Shown here piece after piece: positions 2,642 through 25,079 of a stretch of 25,505 nt of DNA. The stretch lies in IMG/VR virus record IMGVR_UViG_3300009103_000142, positions 1 to 25,505 of that record; one strand, written 5' to 3'. This DNA comes from a virus. Position 1 is the first letter of the stretch; each line of letters opens with the position of its first letter. Under the pieces are notes generated by a model. That model did not search any database. It was not told the DNA's origin and was given only the letters and a program-made list of their open reading frames with translations. The translations under genes were made by a program, and so were the position numbers.

Positions 2642-3934
2642 TTAAGTAGCTATAGTTTGTATTTCATAACCCTGTTTAATATATACTCCCATACGTGCTT
2701 TAGCCTGTTTACTAGCAGTATTCCCTTTTAAATGAATATCTAGTATAACAGGCTGTTGCTTTCCTTCAAGTTTCCTAATAACTCGTCCTATTAACTGGAT
2801 TAGAAGTGGCTCATTATTGAGAGGAGTGCCCAAAATAAGAACAGATAACTCATTAAGCGAAATACCTTCGCTAAATATACTCTGAGACCCATAAAGGATA
2901 TCTGCTGAACCATTTTTGATTTTATCGAGTTGTGTCTCTCTTTCCACATGATCTAGTTCTCCCGTAATACATACTGCGTTATTTCCGGTGAGGTCGGCGC
3001 AACGTTTTAAAAATTGGACTCTATCGCTTACTACTAATATTTTATGTCCTTTTGCAGCATAAGTACTGGCTAACATAGATACCATATGTTGGTATTCTTC
3101 ATTGTAAGCGACAGTATTTACTCGTCTAGCCCAAGGTATTTTAGCACTATCTGGAAAACGAACTTCTGACTTAACAACTACAACTCTTGGAGTAATATAA
3201 TTTTCTTTTGGAGGTTGATGAACGTCAAAACCAAAATAATCATTAAAAATTACATGTTTCCCATCTTTTCGTTGAAGAGTACCGCTGAGTCCAATTTTAT
3301 ACCTTGCGGTAGATTTATCAATTATATTAGCAAATGTAGGTGCACTCACATGATGCATTTCATCTAATATGAGAGTTCCGAACATTTGAGAAACTTCTTT
3401 AATTTTCTTACTAAGAGTTTGTACATTAGATATAACAATCATTGGTTCAGTATTAAATTTTCCGCTTCCTATGATACCTGGTTTAATACCTAAGGTTTTT
3501 TCAATCTCTTCTTCCCACTGGTTTCTTAACGCTAAAGTATGGACTACAATTAGAGTTTTCTGCCCTAATTTAGCGGCAATAGCCAGAGCTGTAAAAGTCT
3601 TACCCCAACTTACAAAAGCATTAATAATTGCATTATCTTCAACTAAATTGTAAACTCGGGCTTGGCTATCCCTCAGCTCGAATTTGAACTCTGGAAAAAT
3701 TTCTGGAACTTTGGTACGCTTATCTGAAATTTCAAACTCATCAGGTATTAAATCCATTCTACCAACTGGAACACTAATTAATTTATCACTAATCCGTCCC
3801 ATATTTTTAATAATAGTTGGCGGATCCATTGGGTTATATGAAGGAATTGTATAAGTAAGCTCCTTATCTAATAGTTCCTGCCGTTTAGCGTCAGCAGGCA
3901 TATAAATTCTATTAGATATAATTGCTTTTTTCAT
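2642..3934 (-). CDS. SF2 DNA helicase, T5 D10-like (UvsW family)
   Basis: 430 residues of a superfamily 2 helicase. Motif I is FVSWGKT (residues 107-113), lacking the usual leading Gly of a Walker A. Motif II is DEMH (191-194), motif III is SGT (217-219), and motif VI is QLIGRVIRK near residue 385. The layout, with a short N-terminal domain and RDSQ before motif I, matches phage UvsW/T5 D10-type helicases that act on branched replication or recombination intermediates. It lies downstream of the polymerase and a small gene, overlapping the latter by 4 nt. The following promoter starts a new unit, so this gene ends the polymerase operon. Confidence 0.9.
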   Translation of the reverse strand: MKKAIISNRIYMPADAKRQELLDKELTYTIPSYNPMDPPTIIKNMGRISDKLISVPVGRMDLIPDEFEISDKRTKVPEIFPEFKFELRDSQARVYNLVEDNAIINAFVSWGKTFTALAIAAKLGQKTLIVVHTLALRNQWEEEIEKTLGIKPGIIGSGKFNTEPMIVISNVQTLSKKIKEVSQMFGTLILDEMHHVSAPTFANIIDKSTARYKIGLSGTLQRKDGKHVIFNDYFGFDVHQPPKENYITPRVVVVKSEVRFPDSAKIPWARRVNTVAYNEEYQHMVSMLASTYAAKGHKILVVSDRVQFLKRCADLTGNNAVCITGELDHVERETQLDKIKNGSADILYGSQSIFSEGISLNELSVLILGTPLNNEPLLIQLIGRVIRKLEGKQQPVILDIHLKGNTASKQAKARMGVYIKQGYEIQTIAT

Positions 3935-4440
3935 AATTTCCTTCTAGTATCTTTTAGTTTTTCGTTAGTCATTTCATAGAGTAAATAACCTCTACCTACT
4001 TTTAGTACTCCAGCATATATAGCTCTTAGATTTAGCTTTCCTTTAATTTCAAAAGGGCTATTAATATCTTCTAAACCAAATATAGTAGAGTTACTTGTAT
4101 ATTTTCGCCAAATAACCTTTCTATAAATTAGAGGGTAGAACTTAGTCTTTTTATAATTAAAAAGCCTACCCTCATAGTCTATAAACTTGTTAGAACCTGA
4201 AAGTATTAAGTCTTTAAAATTCCAAATAGCTTTTTTAAGGGGATAAAGTTTATAATCCTTCATTTCTTTAGCTATTAATCTTCTTTGAGTAAAAGGATCT
4301 TTCTTATCTTCTAAATCCAACCTTCTGGTTCCTTTATCATCAGTGATTAAACCACCTGAAATAATTTCATGATGACGAATAGCCCATACAGGCCAGTGAA
4401 TATCAAAGAAACTCAGAGTATTGCTTTTCGAATTTTCCAA
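3931..4440 (-). CDS. Hypothetical protein between polymerase and D10-like helicase
   Basis: About 169 residues, not recognised. No ATG occurs before residue ~60 of the open frame. TTG at 4440 is preferred because GGAGAGG lies about nine bases upstream; another TTG at 4458 lacks such a site. The start lies inside the 3' end of the polymerase gene in another frame, and the stop overlaps the helicase start by 4 nt, so all three are coupled. The protein is basic and aromatic-rich, with a hydrophobic C-terminal segment (AIYAGVLKVGRGYLLYEM) but no clear membrane helix. Context suggests a replication accessory role; this is inference. Confidence 0.7.
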   Translation of the reverse strand: MENSKSNTLSFFDIHWPVWAIRHHEIISGGLITDDKGTRRLDLEDKKDPFTQRRLIAKEMKDYKLYPLKKAIWNFKDLILSGSNKFIDYEGRLFNYKKTKFYPLIYRKVIWRKYTSNSTIFGLEDINSPFEIKGKLNLRAIYAGVLKVGRGYLLYEMTNEKLKDTRRKL

Positions 4441-6667
4441 AACTGTAATCCTCTCCAATATCGAGGTCTACCCCGACTGGTTGTCCAGGTATACTACAGC
4501 CTCGATCTTTTTGTGTTAATTCCGCCATCTTTTTAGCTACTATGTCTACACTCTCATCCATTACTTCTAGTACTAAAGAATCGTGCACAAGTGCAATTAT
4601 TTTAGCATCAATAGAATTTTGTTTAATCCATTGATTTAACTCAATTCCAGCCAGAAGATTAATGTCAGAAGCAACAGATTGAATAAGAAAATTAATCCCA
4701 CTACGAACTTCATGTGAGGCAACCCCCTTATCGCTGCTAAAAACATTAGGGAGACGACGCTTACGCCCAAATATGGAGTATATATATCCATAACCCTCAA
4801 TTTCCTCCTTTGATTTTGCTAACCAAGTCTTCAACTTTGAAAATGTTTCAAAATACTTTGCAATCGTATCTTTAGCATCTTGAATGGTGAAGGGTTTTCC
4901 ACTATCTTTAGAAACTGTTTCGGATACCTTAGCCGGTCCTGAGCCATACATTATTCCGAATGTAATAGCTTTGGCGGCTTGTCGTTGAGTAGCCGCTTTA
5001 TCTTTAATTTCAGATACTTCATAAGGCAATCCAAATACCATTTTGGCAACTGTGGAGTGTAAGTCTCCTCCACTTTTAAATACATTTTGAAGATTTTTAT
5101 CTTTACTAAGAATAGCTGCAACATATACCTCAGCTGTAGCTAAATCTTGCTGTAAGATTTTATAACCAGGCTTTGCTTTAATACAACCTTTTACTGCCGC
5201 GTTGTCTCTCGGTAATTGTTGCATATTAATCTTCCCACTACTAGAAAGCCTGCCAGAAGTAGTGGAAGTGAGATTAAAATATGTTCTAAGACGCCCATCT
5301 TTATCTAACTCCGGTATAATCTTATCCAAGTAAGTATTTTTAATCTTGGATTTTTGTCTAATATCAAGAATAATTCCAGGGATTGGATGTTCTTCCGCAA
5401 GTTGTTTTAGGACTTCAGCATCCGTAGAAGCTGCACCAGTGCCAGTAAGTTTACCAGTGGGAGTAAGATTAAGATAATCAAATAGAAGTATTCTAAGTTG
5501 TTGCGTACTATTAGGGTTAAAGATTTTACCCTGTTCTTCTTCAAATTTATGTACTTCTTTATATGAATAAAGTGTTTCTTTATCTGCTTCAATTTCTTCC
5601 TCCATTAAGTGCTGAACTTTACTTAATCTTTCAGCATCAAAAGGTACTCCGTTTTCCTCCACATCTTTTAAGAATAACATTCCAGGAAGCATTAACTCTC
5701 TATATACTTTAGTGAGTTGAACACTGCTTAGAACCTTCTTACTAAACATTTGATATAATTCATATGTAACTGCTGTATCAATAGCAGCATACTCATACAT
5801 AATATCAAATGGGATAAGGTCATAAGTAAAATCCCCTTTTAATACTTTATGTTCCTTACAATATTGTGTTTTAAAATCATCGAGAGCTTTATCATAGTCT
5901 CCATAATCTGTGTATTTCATAGCTAATTGTTTTAAGCCGTGTGAACCTTGTGTTTCATCTAATACATAGTGCATTAACATCGTATCTGAAACTTTAGGGA
6001 AATAAAAGCCAAAATGATACTCAAGCATCTTCAAGTCAAATTTAGCATTATGAAATACAATCATTTTAGAGGAGAAAATGTCCTGCAACAGCTTTTCAGT
6101 TCTTTCTCCAATACACTCAGTGGATATGTAGACACCTTGTTCATTTTTATGTGTAAGGCTAATACCCAGTACGTAACCATCTCTTGGGTATAAAGCTGTT
6201 GTTTCCGTATCGCACGCCACAAACTTAATCGTCTCATCGCTAAGTATCGATTCAAGATATTCATTAGCTCTCTCCTCTTCAATAATACCCTCAAAATCCC
6301 CTGTAACTGTAGGTGGCTTCTCCCCCGCTACATATCCATGTAACTTTTCTACTGCTCTTTCAAATGACGGTTTAGCGTCAGGTTTGAAACTAAGCATAGC
6401 AGGATTAATCATTGGAATAAATTTTTCATTAACCAAGTGTCCTGCAAATTCTGTAACTGAACCTACTCCAGCAATAAACTTAGAGGCTTCTGAACCAATA
6501 AGTATAACGTATTCGTAAGAGTCAGAATCAAACTCTAAATCTACATCTCTTTTTAGTAGTTTCTTTATCTTTTTAGAAGATAAATGATAATGGTCAAAAT
6601 CAAAATCAAAATACTTTCTATAATTAACTCCACTTGGAGCTTTATCAACTATTGCTATCTCTGCCAT
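4403..6667 (-). CDS. Family A DNA polymerase with 3'-5' exonuclease (T5-like)
   Basis: 754 residues. The N-terminal ~120 residues are unassigned. The exonuclease domain follows, with ExoI CDTETT (D153, E155), ExoII HNAKFDLKML (D211) and ExoIII YAAIDT (D297). Polymerase motif A is QQDLATAEVY (D508, E513), the DLxTAE variant of T5 polymerase rather than DYSQIE. Motif B is RQAAKAITFGIMYG (R562, K566, F570, Y574), with Phe at the position matching E. coli F762. Motif C is VHDSLV (H695, D696), with Ser where most family A enzymes have Glu. No 5'-nuclease domain is present. The start overlaps the primase end by 23 nt. This is the replicative polymerase. Confidence 0.96.
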   Translation of the reverse strand: MAEIAIVDKAPSGVNYRKYFDFDFDHYHLSSKKIKKLLKRDVDLEFDSDSYEYVILIGSEASKFIAGVGSVTEFAGHLVNEKFIPMINPAMLSFKPDAKPSFERAVEKLHGYVAGEKPPTVTGDFEGIIEEERANEYLESILSDETIKFVACDTETTALYPRDGYVLGISLTHKNEQGVYISTECIGERTEKLLQDIFSSKMIVFHNAKFDLKMLEYHFGFYFPKVSDTMLMHYVLDETQGSHGLKQLAMKYTDYGDYDKALDDFKTQYCKEHKVLKGDFTYDLIPFDIMYEYAAIDTAVTYELYQMFSKKVLSSVQLTKVYRELMLPGMLFLKDVEENGVPFDAERLSKVQHLMEEEIEADKETLYSYKEVHKFEEEQGKIFNPNSTQQLRILLFDYLNLTPTGKLTGTGAASTDAEVLKQLAEEHPIPGIILDIRQKSKIKNTYLDKIIPELDKDGRLRTYFNLTSTTSGRLSSSGKINMQQLPRDNAAVKGCIKAKPGYKILQQDLATAEVYVAAILSKDKNLQNVFKSGGDLHSTVAKMVFGLPYEVSEIKDKAATQRQAAKAITFGIMYGSGPAKVSETVSKDSGKPFTIQDAKDTIAKYFETFSKLKTWLAKSKEEIEGYGYIYSIFGRKRRLPNVFSSDKGVASHEVRSGINFLIQSVASDINLLAGIELNQWIKQNSIDAKIIALVHDSLVLEVMDESVDIVAKKMAELTQKDRGCSIPGQPVGVDLDIGEDYSFGKFEKQYSEFL

Positions 6668-14549: not shown

Positions 14550-14581
14550 CTTTTTCTCTCTTTTTCGATTTTTGAATGTAT

Positions 14582-14610
14582 ATTATACTGAATTTTTAAC
14601 TAATTGTCAA
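14582..14610 (-). promoter_or_regulatory. Consensus promoter for the tmRNA transcription unit
   Basis: TTGACA (14610-14605), 17 bp, TATAAT (14587-14582), followed by ATACATTC and preceded by AAAAATAATTC. It serves the 89-residue gene and the tmRNA. Confidence 0.93.
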
Positions 14611-14613
14611 GAA

Positions 14614-22830: not shown

Positions 22831-22969
22831 AATCTAAAAATTCCTCGAAACCTTGGTGAACTAAAATAGTTTCACCTATATTATCTGGATCTGGTACTTC
22901 TACATACCTTTCCTGTTCTTTTTTAATATTATCTAATAAATCATTCCAAAATTCTTCTGTAGTAATCAT
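22802..22969 (-). CDS. Small acidic hypothetical protein
   Basis: 55 residues (MITTEEFWNDLLDNIKKEQERYVEV...), acidic, starting at a TAATG overlap with the upstream stop. The last 29 nt overlap the next gene. Not recognised. Confidence 0.62.
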   Translation of the reverse strand: MITTEEFWNDLLDNIKKEQERYVEVPDPDNIGETILVHQGFEEFLDYESTPINSK

Positions 22970-23265
22970 TAGCAGCCTGTACTTTCTTCAGCTTCAGCTT
23001 TTTTAATACCTTCTTTAATAGCATCAATTACACCCATATGTAAAAGAAGTTGAAATTCTTCATCACTAAGTTCATATGTCTTAGCTTCTTTACTTAGTGG
23101 TTCGATGGGATCACATATAACTAAATCTTTAATGCCCTCTTCTTTCATAATAGCTTTAAAACCTTGCTTAAGCATTAATCTAGTAGTTTCAGTATCCAAA
23201 TCGAAGGACATTGTAGCTGAGCCATCTTCATGCTCTTCAATTGTTTCTACACTTATTTTACTCAT
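22969..23265 (-). CDS. Hypothetical protein after the tRNA cluster
   Basis: 98 residues from ATG at 23265, with AGGA about eight bases upstream. The open frame extends to 23310 but would overlap tRNA-His, so the later start is used. The sequence (MSKISVETIEEHEDGSATMSFDLD...) is acidic, with a Cys in VICDPIEPL and a Cys at the last residue. First gene after the tRNA block and probably transcribed with it. Confidence 0.7.
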   Translation of the reverse strand: MSKISVETIEEHEDGSATMSFDLDTETTRLMLKQGFKAIMKEEGIKDLVICDPIEPLSKEAKTYELSDEEFQLLLHMGVIDAIKEGIKKAEAEESTGC

Positions 23266-23282
23266 TACATTATTCCTATAGT

Positions 23283-23356
23283 TGGGGTGCAGTGTAGGTA
23301 ACGCTCCCACGTCGACGGGATCACAACCCGTGGCTCTACTTTTGAGCTAACCGCAC
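23283..23356 (-). tRNA. tRNA-His (GTG), altered elbow loops
   Basis: Acceptor GTGCGGT / ACTGCAC (one G-U), discriminator C73 as expected for His, encoded CCA. Anticodon loop TTGTGAT. The D-loop is only AAAAGTA (no G18-G19) and the T-loop is AGCGTTA instead of TTCRANY, with stem GTGGG / CCTAC. The -1 base is T, not the usual G. Confidence 0.82.
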
Positions 23357-23366
23357 ATATTTAAAT

Positions 23367-23442
23367 TGGTCTCCCGACTAGGATTTGAACCTAGGATACT
23401 ACGTCCCAAACGTAGGGTATTACCAGACTATACTATCGAGAG
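23367..23442 (-). tRNA. tRNA-Pro (TGG)
   Basis: Acceptor CTCTCGA / TCGGGAG, discriminator A, CCA encoded. Anticodon loop TTTGGGA on stem CTACG / CGTAG. D-loop contains GG; T-loop TTCAAAT is canonical. Confidence 0.93.
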
Positions 23443-23447
23443 TTGAT

Positions 23448-23521
23448 TGGTCCTCAGTGATGGTAACACTCCATCTTCTACCGCTTATTAGGCGACCGTT
23501 CTACTTTTGAACTAACCGAGG
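23448..23521 (-). tRNA. tRNA with anticodon AAT (Ile?), altered elbow loops
   Basis: Acceptor CCTCGGT / ACTGAGG, discriminator A, CCA encoded. Anticodon loop CTAATAA gives AAT, an A34 anticodon rarely used for Ile in bacteria; the anticodon stem has G-U pairs. The D-loop is AAAAGTA and the T-loop is AGTGTTA (stem GATGG / CCATC), as in the neighbouring tRNA-His. Identity uncertain. Confidence 0.65.
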
Positions 23522-23528
23522 AATAAAT

Positions 23529-23601
23529 TGGAGCGGATAGGGGAAATCGAATCCCCACAGCACGGCTTGGAAGGCCGGCGGTACACCTTGTACTTACCCG
23601 C
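23529..23601 (-). tRNA. tRNA-Gly (TCC)
   Basis: Acceptor GCGGGTA / TATCCGC, discriminator T as usual for Gly, CCA encoded. Anticodon loop CTTCCAA. Short D-loop AAGGT keeps GG; T-loop TTCGATT on GGGGA / TCCCC. Confidence 0.93.
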
Positions 23602-23604
23602 GTT

Positions 23605-23678
23605 TGGCTTCGGGTCGAGAACTCGAATCTCGATTCACAGGATCAAAACCTGTTGTCCTGCCATTAGACGAACCCGAA
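23605..23678 (-). tRNA. tRNA-Gln (TTG)
   Basis: Acceptor TTCGGGT / ACCCGAA, discriminator G, CCA encoded. Anticodon loop TTTTGAT on ACAGG / CCTGT. T-loop TTCGAGT. Confidence 0.93.
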
Positions 23679-23679
23679 A

Positions 23680-23755
23680 TGGCTCCTCGAATTGGACTCG
23701 AACCAATGACAAACGGATTAACAGTCCGTGGCTCTACCAACTGAGCTATCGAGGA
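23680..23755 (-). tRNA. tRNA-Asn (GTT)
   Basis: Acceptor TCCTCGA / TCGAGGA, discriminator G, CCA encoded. D-loop AGTTGGTA; anticodon loop CTGTTAA; T-loop TTCGAGT. Fully canonical. Confidence 0.95.
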
Positions 23756-23759
23756 AAAG

Positions 23760-23835
23760 TGGTGCCCAGAGTCGGATTCGAACTGACGACCTACGCATTA
23801 CAAGTGCGTTGCTCTACCAACTGAGCTATCCGGGC
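23760..23835 (-). tRNA. tRNA-Thr (TGT)
   Basis: Acceptor GCCCGGA / TCTGGGC, discriminator A, CCA encoded. Anticodon loop CTTGTAA on ACGCA / TGCGT. T-loop TTCGAAT. Canonical. Confidence 0.94.
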
Positions 23836-23842
23836 TTTATTT

Positions 23843-23917
23843 TGGTGGGTCTGAATGGGATTGAACCATTACTCAACCGATTATGAGTCGGATGCTTTAC
23901 CATTAAGCTACAGACCC
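23843..23917 (-). tRNA. tRNA with CAT anticodon (elongator Met or Ile2)
   Basis: Acceptor GGGTCTG / CAGACCC, discriminator A, CCA encoded. Anticodon loop CTCATAA on TCCGA / TCGGT. It lacks the GGG/CCC anticodon stem of initiators. The GACTCATAATCG core resembles Ile2 tRNAs whose C34 becomes lysidine; sequence alone does not separate this from elongator Met. Confidence 0.9.
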
Positions 23918-23921
23918 AGAG

Positions 23922-24006
23922 TGGTAGCTGGAGAGGGACTCGAACCCTCAACCCTTACGGGGAACGATTTTAAGTCGTTTGTGTAAACCAATTCCACCAT
24001 CCAGCC
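23922..24006 (-). tRNA. tRNA-Leu (TAA)
   Basis: 85 nt with a long variable arm (CCCCGTAAGGGT). Acceptor GGCTGGA / TCCAGCT (G1-U72), discriminator A, CCA encoded. Anticodon loop CTTAAAA; T-loop TTCGAGT. Confidence 0.93.
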
Positions 24007-24007
24007 T

Positions 24008-24268
24008 TTATTTCTTTAAAGTTTTACCTTTATTATATTCTAATCTTAAATATTTTGCCATTATATTCCAGGCTTCTTCTCCTTCATGGGGGATAATACA
24101 TCCTGAACAATCTTTATCACCATTAGGGAGTATTTCATATACACCTGGACATTTTATAAAGTATAATGGACAATAACAAAAAAGGCAGTTGAAATCAGCT
24201 GCCCTCTTTAATTTGTGGCAAGGGTAATACTTGCATTCTTTATTTGTAAAAACTTTATAACTATTCAT
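24008..24268 (-). CDS. Cysteine-rich small-domain protein within the tRNA cluster
   Basis: 86 residues. The pattern ECKYYPCHK...FNCLFCYCPLY...CPG...DCSGCIIPH (C12, C17, H18, C28, C31, C33, C40, C54, C57, H61) matches the cysteine-rich small domain family PF04071, a probable metal-binding domain of unknown function in archaea and anaerobic bacteria. Its ATG is 2 nt after the CCA end of the initiator tRNA and its stop is 2 nt before tRNA-Leu. It thus fills the gap exactly, has no ribosome-binding site, and would be freed by tRNA processing. Confidence 0.82.
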   Translation of the reverse strand: MNSYKVFTNKECKYYPCHKLKRAADFNCLFCYCPLYFIKCPGVYEILPNGDKDCSGCIIPHEGEEAWNIMAKYLRLEYNKGKTLKK

Positions 24269-24269
24269 T

Positions 24270-24344
24270 TGGTAGCAGGGGAGGGACTCGAACCCCCAAC
24301 CACTGGGTTATGAGCCCAGTAATCTACCTTTGATATACCCTGCA
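24270..24344 (-). tRNA. Initiator tRNA-fMet (CAT)
   Basis: Three initiator marks are visible. Position 1-72 is unpaired (T1, T72; acceptor TGCAGGG / CCCTGCT). Three G-C pairs sit in the anticodon stem next to the loop (CTGGG-CTCATAA-CCCAG). Position 11-24 is A-T. CCA is encoded; T-loop TTCGAGT. Confidence 0.88.
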
Positions 24345-24351
24345 ATAAAAT

Positions 24352-24426
24352 TGGTACTCGGTAGGGTAATCGAAACCCTGTTACGCGGATGAAAACCGTG
24401 TGTCCTAACCTCTAGACGAACCGAGC
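24352..24426 (-). tRNA. tRNA-Glu (TTC)
   Basis: Acceptor GCTCGGT / ACCGAGT (G1-U72), discriminator A, CCA encoded. Anticodon loop TTTTCAT. T-loop TTCGATT on AGGGT / ACCCT. Confidence 0.92.
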
Positions 24427-24435
24427 ATAATAAAT

Positions 24436-24502
24436 TGGTTTGCCTATGGTTCGAACATAGAATTCCCACTAAAGTAGGTGTTTTACTTTAAACTAACAAA
24501 CC
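24436..24502 (-). tRNA. Degenerate tRNA or tRNA-like RNA with a short anticodon arm
   Basis: A perfect acceptor GGTTTGT / GCAAACC, D-arm GTTT / AAAC (loop AAAGTA) and T-arm CTATG-TTCGAAC-CATAG are present. Only 14 nt (CCTACTTTAGTGGG) occupy the anticodon arm, three fewer than normal. The best fold is a 5-bp stem with a 4-nt loop, so no anticodon can be assigned. After discriminator A no CCA is encoded, unlike its neighbours. Confidence 0.5.
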
Positions 24503-25044
24503 CACACTTTCAACAAATTTAATAAGCTCTTTAACGCTTAGTTTACCACTTACATTAAGTGCTGGCTCTCTAAAGAGCTTATTAAATGCCTCTTCTATTT
24601 TAGTCGGAAGAGGCTACGACTTGGTTTCATACTAACACAATTTTAAGAAGTATTTTACTTCACCAGATGCGAGCAAAATGGGTGGTTAATCCTTAATCCT
24701 TTTCCGAATACTCAGACAAAAGGCACACGCAAAGGCACTGTCTTCCCTTGTTAGTTAGGGCAAGTTACCAACTTACTTTGTTTTTAATGAAACACGCGGC
24801 ATGAAGCCGTAATGAGGTTGTGAGTTCTTTTATATACCGTCGTCCACCCTTATCCTCAGTGCCAACGGTTCGGCAGTTTACGCACTGGGTCTCTCGACAT
24901 TCTTCACCAGTTAAAGGAATGACATTTCTTCTCGATTCCTATGCTTAGCCATTTAGTTTTTACATCTTCTTTGATGGAACAGTTCCTTTTGATTAAAGAG
25001 AGTAGTAGCTGTCTCAAATCCCATCTCTCTATTTCTCATTTTAT
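24503..25044 (-). ncRNA. Unidentified large structured RNA upstream of the tRNA cluster
   Basis: About 540 nt from the predicted start point of the promoter at 25051-25079 to the first tRNA-like element, with no convincing complete gene. Minus-strand helices include AGGAAT / ATTCCT (24940-24915), CAGTGC / GCACTG (24887-24857), CGGC / GCCG, AAGTT / AACTT, GAAGTA / TACTTC and an 8-bp GCCTCTTC / GAAGAGGC (24614-24588). A perfect 16-bp inverted repeat (24586-24571 with 24533-24518) encloses a CACTTA / TAAGTG hairpin. The middle part is richer in G/C than surrounding spacers. I find no RNase P, group I or group II core. Large ornate phage RNAs such as GOLLD and ROOL also lie near tRNAs and are the main comparison. 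Confidence 0.55.
24953..25039 (-). CDS. Possible leaderless micro-ORF at the start of the structured RNA
   Basis: 28 codons from ATG at 25039 (MRNREMGFETATTLFNQKEL...), only about 5 nt from the predicted transcript start and without a ribosome-binding site. It may be a leaderless peptide, the first part of an interrupted gene, or chance. Confidence 0.25.
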   Translation of the reverse strand: MRNREMGFETATTLFNQKELFHQRRCKN

Positions 25045-25050
25045 ATGTAT

Positions 25051-25079
25051 ATTATACTGAATTTTTAACAAATTGTCAA
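25051..25079 (-). promoter_or_regulatory. Consensus promoter for the structured RNA and tRNA cluster
   Basis: TTGACA (25079-25074), 17 bp, TATAAT (25056-25051), followed by ATACAT and preceded by GAAAAAATTTC. No terminator is seen before the tRNA genes, so it should drive both. Confidence 0.93.

Follow-up and report, generated by a model that had tools for sequence, protein, structure and literature searches.

A conserved double-pseudoknot RNA beside the tRNA genes of T5-like phages: a candidate uncatalogued phage RNA

Introduction

To our knowledge, few large structured RNAs are known in phages, and no function has been assigned to those that lie next to tRNAs, ROOL and GOLLD. ROOL is often found near tRNA islands, contains multiple pseudoknots and has been described without an assigned function, and GOLLD, likewise a phage RNA often located near tRNAs, has a conserved 3' region and a less conserved 5' region (PMC12286853).

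A sequence-only reading of a 25,505-nt stretch of viral DNA (IMG/VR record IMGVR_UViG_3300009103_000142, positions 1 to 25,505; here called the window) had proposed that a tRNA operon begins with a large structured RNA of about 540 nt, possibly a divergent ROOL or GOLLD RNA or a new class. We compared this region with catalogued RNAs and with related phage genomes. The best explanation, to which we give a probability of roughly 0.6, is that this is the gene of a structured phage RNA not yet catalogued, which is processed from the tRNA transcript and acts in trans. This would add a separate RNA family that shares the genomic habit of ROOL and GOLLD, with a core compact enough for probing and structure solution, and it makes testable whether dedicated helper RNAs are the general company of phage tRNA clusters.

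Results and Discussion

Genomic setting

The window, which encodes a DNA polymerase, a DnaB-like helicase, a D5-like regulator, an NAD ligase and SbcD, is part of a T5-like phage; the closest GenBank relatives of the NAD ligase are T5-like, and the relatives examined are mostly Demerecviridae. The consensus promoter reported at the start of the region is indeed present (TTGACA-17-TATAAT; Table 1). It recurs within the window near 14613-14580, and 45 of 50 related records matched the query, the majority at its promoter part. Judged from these matches, the promoter is a phage-wide element. Near-identical early promoters at 14580-14613 and 25045-25079 (minus strand), together with many more in relatives, define a set of promoters in this group of phages.

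The stretch of about 540 nt on the minus strand between the promoter and the first tRNA-like gene (24502) holds no protein gene, as had been stated; the longest listed ORF within 24503-25044 has 42 aa and lies on the opposite strand. The tRNA genes come directly after it and have the same orientation. The first of them was missed by ARAGORN and found by Rfam, has an anticodon loop of just 4 nt by our reading, and is possibly a pseudogene, decayed, or an unusual tRNA. A search for terminator-like sites between the RNA and the tRNAs gave nothing convincing, the single weak match being inside the first tRNA, and co-transcription is therefore likely. The 86-aa Cys-rich small-domain protein (PF04071) encoded within the tRNA cluster at 24008-24268 (minus strand) has relatives in eight other viral contigs.

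Table 1. Positions of the promoter, RNA elements and neighbouring RNA genes in the window.
Feature	Position	Strand	Basis
Sigma-70-type promoter, TTGACA-N17-TATAAT	25051..25079	-	12/12 consensus positions
Predicted transcription start	near 25044	-	From the sigma-70-type promoter
5' leader of transcript, ~260 nt	24785..25044	-	No ORF, homologue or folding excess (z +0.1)
Conserved structured RNA core (family domain)	24588..24784	-	nhmmer (L123, L125), pattern scans (L178), leave-one-out profile
P1 hairpin, CCCU(24760-24757)/AGGG(24748-24745), loop AACUAACA	24745..24760	-	100% pairing across the 4 members; both sides differ in one pair
PKa 5' strand ACUAAC, in P1 loop	24750..24755	-	Pairs with 24636-24631 in 4/4; both sides differ in two pairs
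CCUUU motif, 5' side of proposed P2	24731..24735	-	Invariant 4/4; P2 pairing by eye
P3 hairpin GAAGU(AAAAU)ACUUC, directly 5' of UUAAA	24647..24661	-	Hairpin at same place in 4/4
CUUAAA strand	24641..24647	-	Invariant 4/4
PKa 3' strand GUUAGU	24631..24636	-	Partner of P1 loop
PKb: S1 AGUCG/CGACU, S2 GCCUCUU/AAGAGGC, L3 AAAAUAG	24588..24621	-	Same architecture and place in 3/3 T5-like members
17-bp perfect hairpin with inner hairpin, variable 3' extension	24517..24587	-	Repeat search, shuffles
First tRNA-like gene 3' of the RNA	24436..24502	-	Rfam tRNA model, 41.4 bits
Remaining tRNA cluster, with gene for 86-aa Cys-rich protein inside	23283..24426	-	tRNA genes
Permuted (two-piece type) tmRNA, tag ANDNVYSLAA	13999-14289	-	tmRNA model match (RF04321)

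Folding of the region

The claim that the region contains many helices held only in part. The whole 551-nt strand folded with an energy z of -1.13 relative to shuffles (14/100), so that predicted helices are by themselves no evidence here; the folding excess was limited to the 3' 140 nt (z -4.0) and did not extend to the 5' 260 nt. The perfect inverted repeat that encloses a smaller hairpin, reported as 16 bp, is in fact 17 bp long (24517-24533 with 24571-24587). It exceeds every other inverted repeat in the window by at least 5 bp, and dinucleotide shuffles of the region (n=300) gave inverted repeats of 12 bp at most. Neither this hairpin nor the 5' 260 nt had a sequence counterpart among the homologues described below: different hairpins occupy its place in L123, and L125 has almost none, only a short stretch. 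The proposed length of about 540 nt thus shrank, as homology spans only about 160-200 nt, beyond which lies a 3' hairpin region that varies; a structured part is supported only for the 3' 200-280 nt, and the 5' 260 nt are unsupported.

The ordinary folding energy would also suit a region with no RNA gene at all, consisting of a decayed protein gene or of spacer in a fast-changing tRNA region. In the relative G008, the same two genes that precede the region in the window (98% and 59% identical) lead into different small genes and, after these, the homologue of 22969-23268, and neither the RNA nor the tRNAs occur between these flanking genes; the RNA and tRNAs (23283-25044) therefore form a replaceable module, whose absence from G008 agrees with this explanation, as does a protein-like open stretch of 38 codons at the 3' end. 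However, that stretch lacks both a start codon and a convincing homologue, and the compensatory changes in the pseudoknots would be unexpected in spacer, and we regard this explanation as barely credible. An interrupted gene or intron was rejected as well, the 3' open frame (PLPTKIEEAFNKLF...) resembling unrelated genes only.

Homologues of the core

The core, about 160-200 nt at window positions 24784-24588 (minus strand), has counterparts in three IMG/VR relatives, so that the family has four members: the window, L123 (contigs G012/G013/G028), L125 (G004) and L178. L123 and L125 are other T5-like phages, and the contig L178 is related to T4 (gp32 family). When the window RNA was used as a single nhmmer query over the fetched loci, L123 was the top match (E 0.04) and L125 came lower (E 9), and L123 and L125 matched each other at the same place (E 0.026), the core match in both being directly 5' of the first tRNA, tRNA-Gly(UCC). 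In profiles built on three members and used to find the fourth, in a search space of 1.76 Mb, the window was recovered at E 4e-4, G004 at 7e-4, G013 at 5e-3 and L178 at 1e-2.

L178 was found by running the pattern CCTANCTA-N3-6-GGAA-N66-96-TTAAA-N5-GNTAG on all viral contigs, which returned two T5-like groups, L178, and one chance match present in two near-identical contigs. The non-coding stretch of L178 also contains features that the pattern did not specify, namely complete complementarity of the loop, CCUUU, GNUAGYA and a C preceding UUAAA. A second, relaxed viral scan from which the P1 motif was dropped recovered L178 again, with six new matches that we judged to be chance, as they were located in open coding frames. 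Two matches of a pattern scan of genome contigs were likewise judged to be chance (L179 in coding sequence, L180 unconvincing). In G038 and G019, short stretches that matched the hairpin arms were coincidences in coding sequence.

In distant blastn searches with the window RNA and each homologue against 50,697 GenBank phages, the RNA body had no credible counterpart, and model R1 found no further member in about 80 other viral records or in eight reference phages (hosts Vibrio, Aeromonas, Pectobacterium, Escherichia, Proteus and Sphingobium). The absence of the RNA from the GenBank and reference phages indicates that it is rare or resides in uncultured phages. The majority of the related records searched, many of which are fragments, did not contain it, with tRNA clusters or without, and no published description of this RNA was found in the literature.

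Conserved fold of the core

The sequence-only reading had suggested that homologues be collected and tested for covariation, and this comparison supported a possible new class, a structured RNA heading the tRNA operon: pairs in P1 and PKa changed on both sides among four members, and pairs in PKb among three. The P1 hairpin has the consensus YCCU/RGGR over the four members, with the loop R-CUA-N-N, and in all four the first pseudoknot, PKa, forms between this loop and a GNUAGY strand further downstream. This 3' strand of PKa starts a few nucleotides after UUAAA, and in the window it lies about 110 nt downstream of P1. In P1 and PKa together, 40 of 40 cells were paired and three pairs were changed on both sides; when the partners were slid, pairing fell to 28-55%. 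By eye, the CC of CCUUU pairs with the GG before P3 to form P2. The stems of P3 differ across the four members (GAAGU/ACUUC, GAGC/GCUC, GGGCU/AGCCC and GAGCAU/AUGUUC).

The second pseudoknot, PKb, is of the H-type and occurs within about 20 nt after PKa in the three T5-like members. Its S1 helix reads AGUCG/CGACU, UCCCC/GGGGA and GUGAC/GUCAC, its S2 helix GCCUCUU/AAGAGGC, UGUCCUU/AAGGACA and UGCCCUC/GAGGGCA, and its A-rich linker L3 AAAAUAG, AUAAAAUAG and UAGAAUAAAGA. Each member forms 12 Watson-Crick pairs, the majority of which vary between members. Both P3 and PKb were selected by eye; with this reservation, the strands of PKb paired with their own partners in 36 of 36 cases and with swapped partners in 35 of 72 (S1 alone, 15/15 and 7/30), and the inner four pairs of P3 in 16 of 16 and 27 of 48 cases, respectively. 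A strict search for the 12-Watson-Crick-pair form found PKb in every T5-like segment, over a background of 0.016 per kb that includes the family members. The strict form was not found in L178, which possibly has, by eye only, an elaborated PKb and a closing helix. In alignment for a covariance model, P3 and PKb are misplaced by the aligner.

H-type pseudoknots with an A-rich L3 are an architecture common to many unrelated RNAs. PKb resembles them in its 5-bp S1, 7-bp S2, short L1 and A-rich L3; this likeness is one of architecture. As only four independent members are available, the covariation statistics are thin; on the aligned sequences, the core fold, including its pseudoknots, is preserved across phage lineages despite many changed letters. 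In practical terms, the core was missed by single-sequence folding energy and found by comparing a few distant relatives with pseudoknots considered.

Comparison with catalogued RNAs

The Rfam search that had been suggested for GOLLD, ROOL, OLE, RNase P and group I/II introns was run against all of Rfam 15 (4227 families) with gathering and permissive thresholds (E<=10), and only tRNA matches were credible in the window region. OLE, RNase P, group I/II introns, ribozymes and riboswitches gave no covariance-model match, and in L123 and L178 tRNA was the only Rfam family with credible matches. The ROOL model (RF03087, threshold 99.1 bits) matched neither the window nor any of 14 related whole records at E<=10, a result that rests on the model's own scoring, as the sets searched held no known ROOL-bearing record as a positive control. 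The GOLLD model (RF02032, threshold 150 bits), run on the region and on whole records, gave none but a meaningless 5-bit match in G070.

A divergent ROOL or GOLLD RNA forming a homo-oligomer, which in ROOL is a nanocage, would agree with the phage origin and the position by tRNAs, both described for these RNAs (PMC12286853), and with the predicted transcript of about 540 nt. The window RNA resembles ROOL in phage origin, transcript length, tRNA proximity and multiple pseudoknots, and GOLLD in its proximity to phage tRNAs and in a conserved 3' and less conserved 5' region. However, its core of just about 200 nt is smaller than the 574 positions of the ROOL model and the 416 of the GOLLD model, neither of which matches it, and in L125 fewer than 200 nt separate the start of the core from the tRNA. 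We therefore consider membership in either class very improbable; the likeness in position stands, and it is one of genomic habit only.

The permuted tmRNA (RF04321) is another structured RNA of these phages. It also occurs in T5-like relatives, and in L125 and L173 it lies upstream of the RNA core on the same strand, but it is a separate gene: its model matches the window at 14289-13999, and a search that used the L125 tmRNA region as query missed the core. A candidate second RNA at 3606-3965 of L125 was rejected, as it is the tmRNA of L125.

A small double-pseudoknot core with invariant CCUUU and CUUAAA, located beside RNA that needs processing, could also be a ribozyme that trims the tRNA transcript by self-cleavage. 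We find this distinctly unlikely, since no Rfam ribozyme model matched at E<=10, no invariant cleavage-site context was recognised, and a tRNA is missing beside the L178 copy.

Possible action of the RNA

All three T5-like members have the RNA adjacent to tRNAs, and the best reading is that in these phages it heads, or sits inside, the early tRNA transcript. The L178 copy has no adjacent tRNA and is directly followed by a 148-aa ORF; the link to tRNA is therefore not universal. Two pseudoknots in about 200 nt are a customary design of aptamers and nuclease blocks. A cis-acting leader that controls the expression, processing or stability of the downstream genes (tRNAs, or the ORF in L178), for example by ligand sensing or nuclease shielding, would fit this design as well as the location of the RNA tens of nucleotides 5' of the first tRNA in the three T5-like phages and the way the L178 stretch runs into its ORF. 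Yet these downstream genes are unrelated, the 5' neighbour of the RNA in L123 and L125 is a protein gene, making the RNA intergenic there rather than a leader, and the interval to the tRNAs lacks a convincing terminator-like site, so that control in cis is conceivable but on the whole unlikely. Because the downstream genes differ, we favour action in trans, a preference of modest weight.

For an RNA processed from the tRNA transcript and acting in trans, the following steps can be envisaged. The strong early promoter would drive a polycistronic transcript with the RNA as its first part and the tRNAs after it. Host tRNA-processing nucleases, with RNase P cutting the first tRNA at its 5' end, would free the RNA; cleavage by RNase P at tRNA 5' ends is established tRNA biology and would set the 3' end of the RNA. 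The compact double pseudoknot could confer nuclease resistance, and the freed RNA would then be stable and act in trans in the infected cell; since it travels with tRNA and tmRNA genes, translation or RNA turnover would be a plausible target. We put forward, as a tentative extension that is rather less than an even bet, that it represents a new class of trans-acting RNA, made early with phage tRNAs in unrelated phage lineages and targeting the host translation or RNA-decay machinery.

Two neighbouring genes may be mentioned. In L125, the tmRNA and the RNA core are separated by a DsrC/TusE-like protein gene (3968-4258); TusE has a role in tRNA thiolation in bacteria, and this gene may be another tRNA-linked gene. 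In L178, the gene for a gp32-like single-strand binding protein (3934-6065) is in two halves with a 313-aa endonuclease-like ORF between them, and the insertion that splits it is likely an intron or other mobile insertion.
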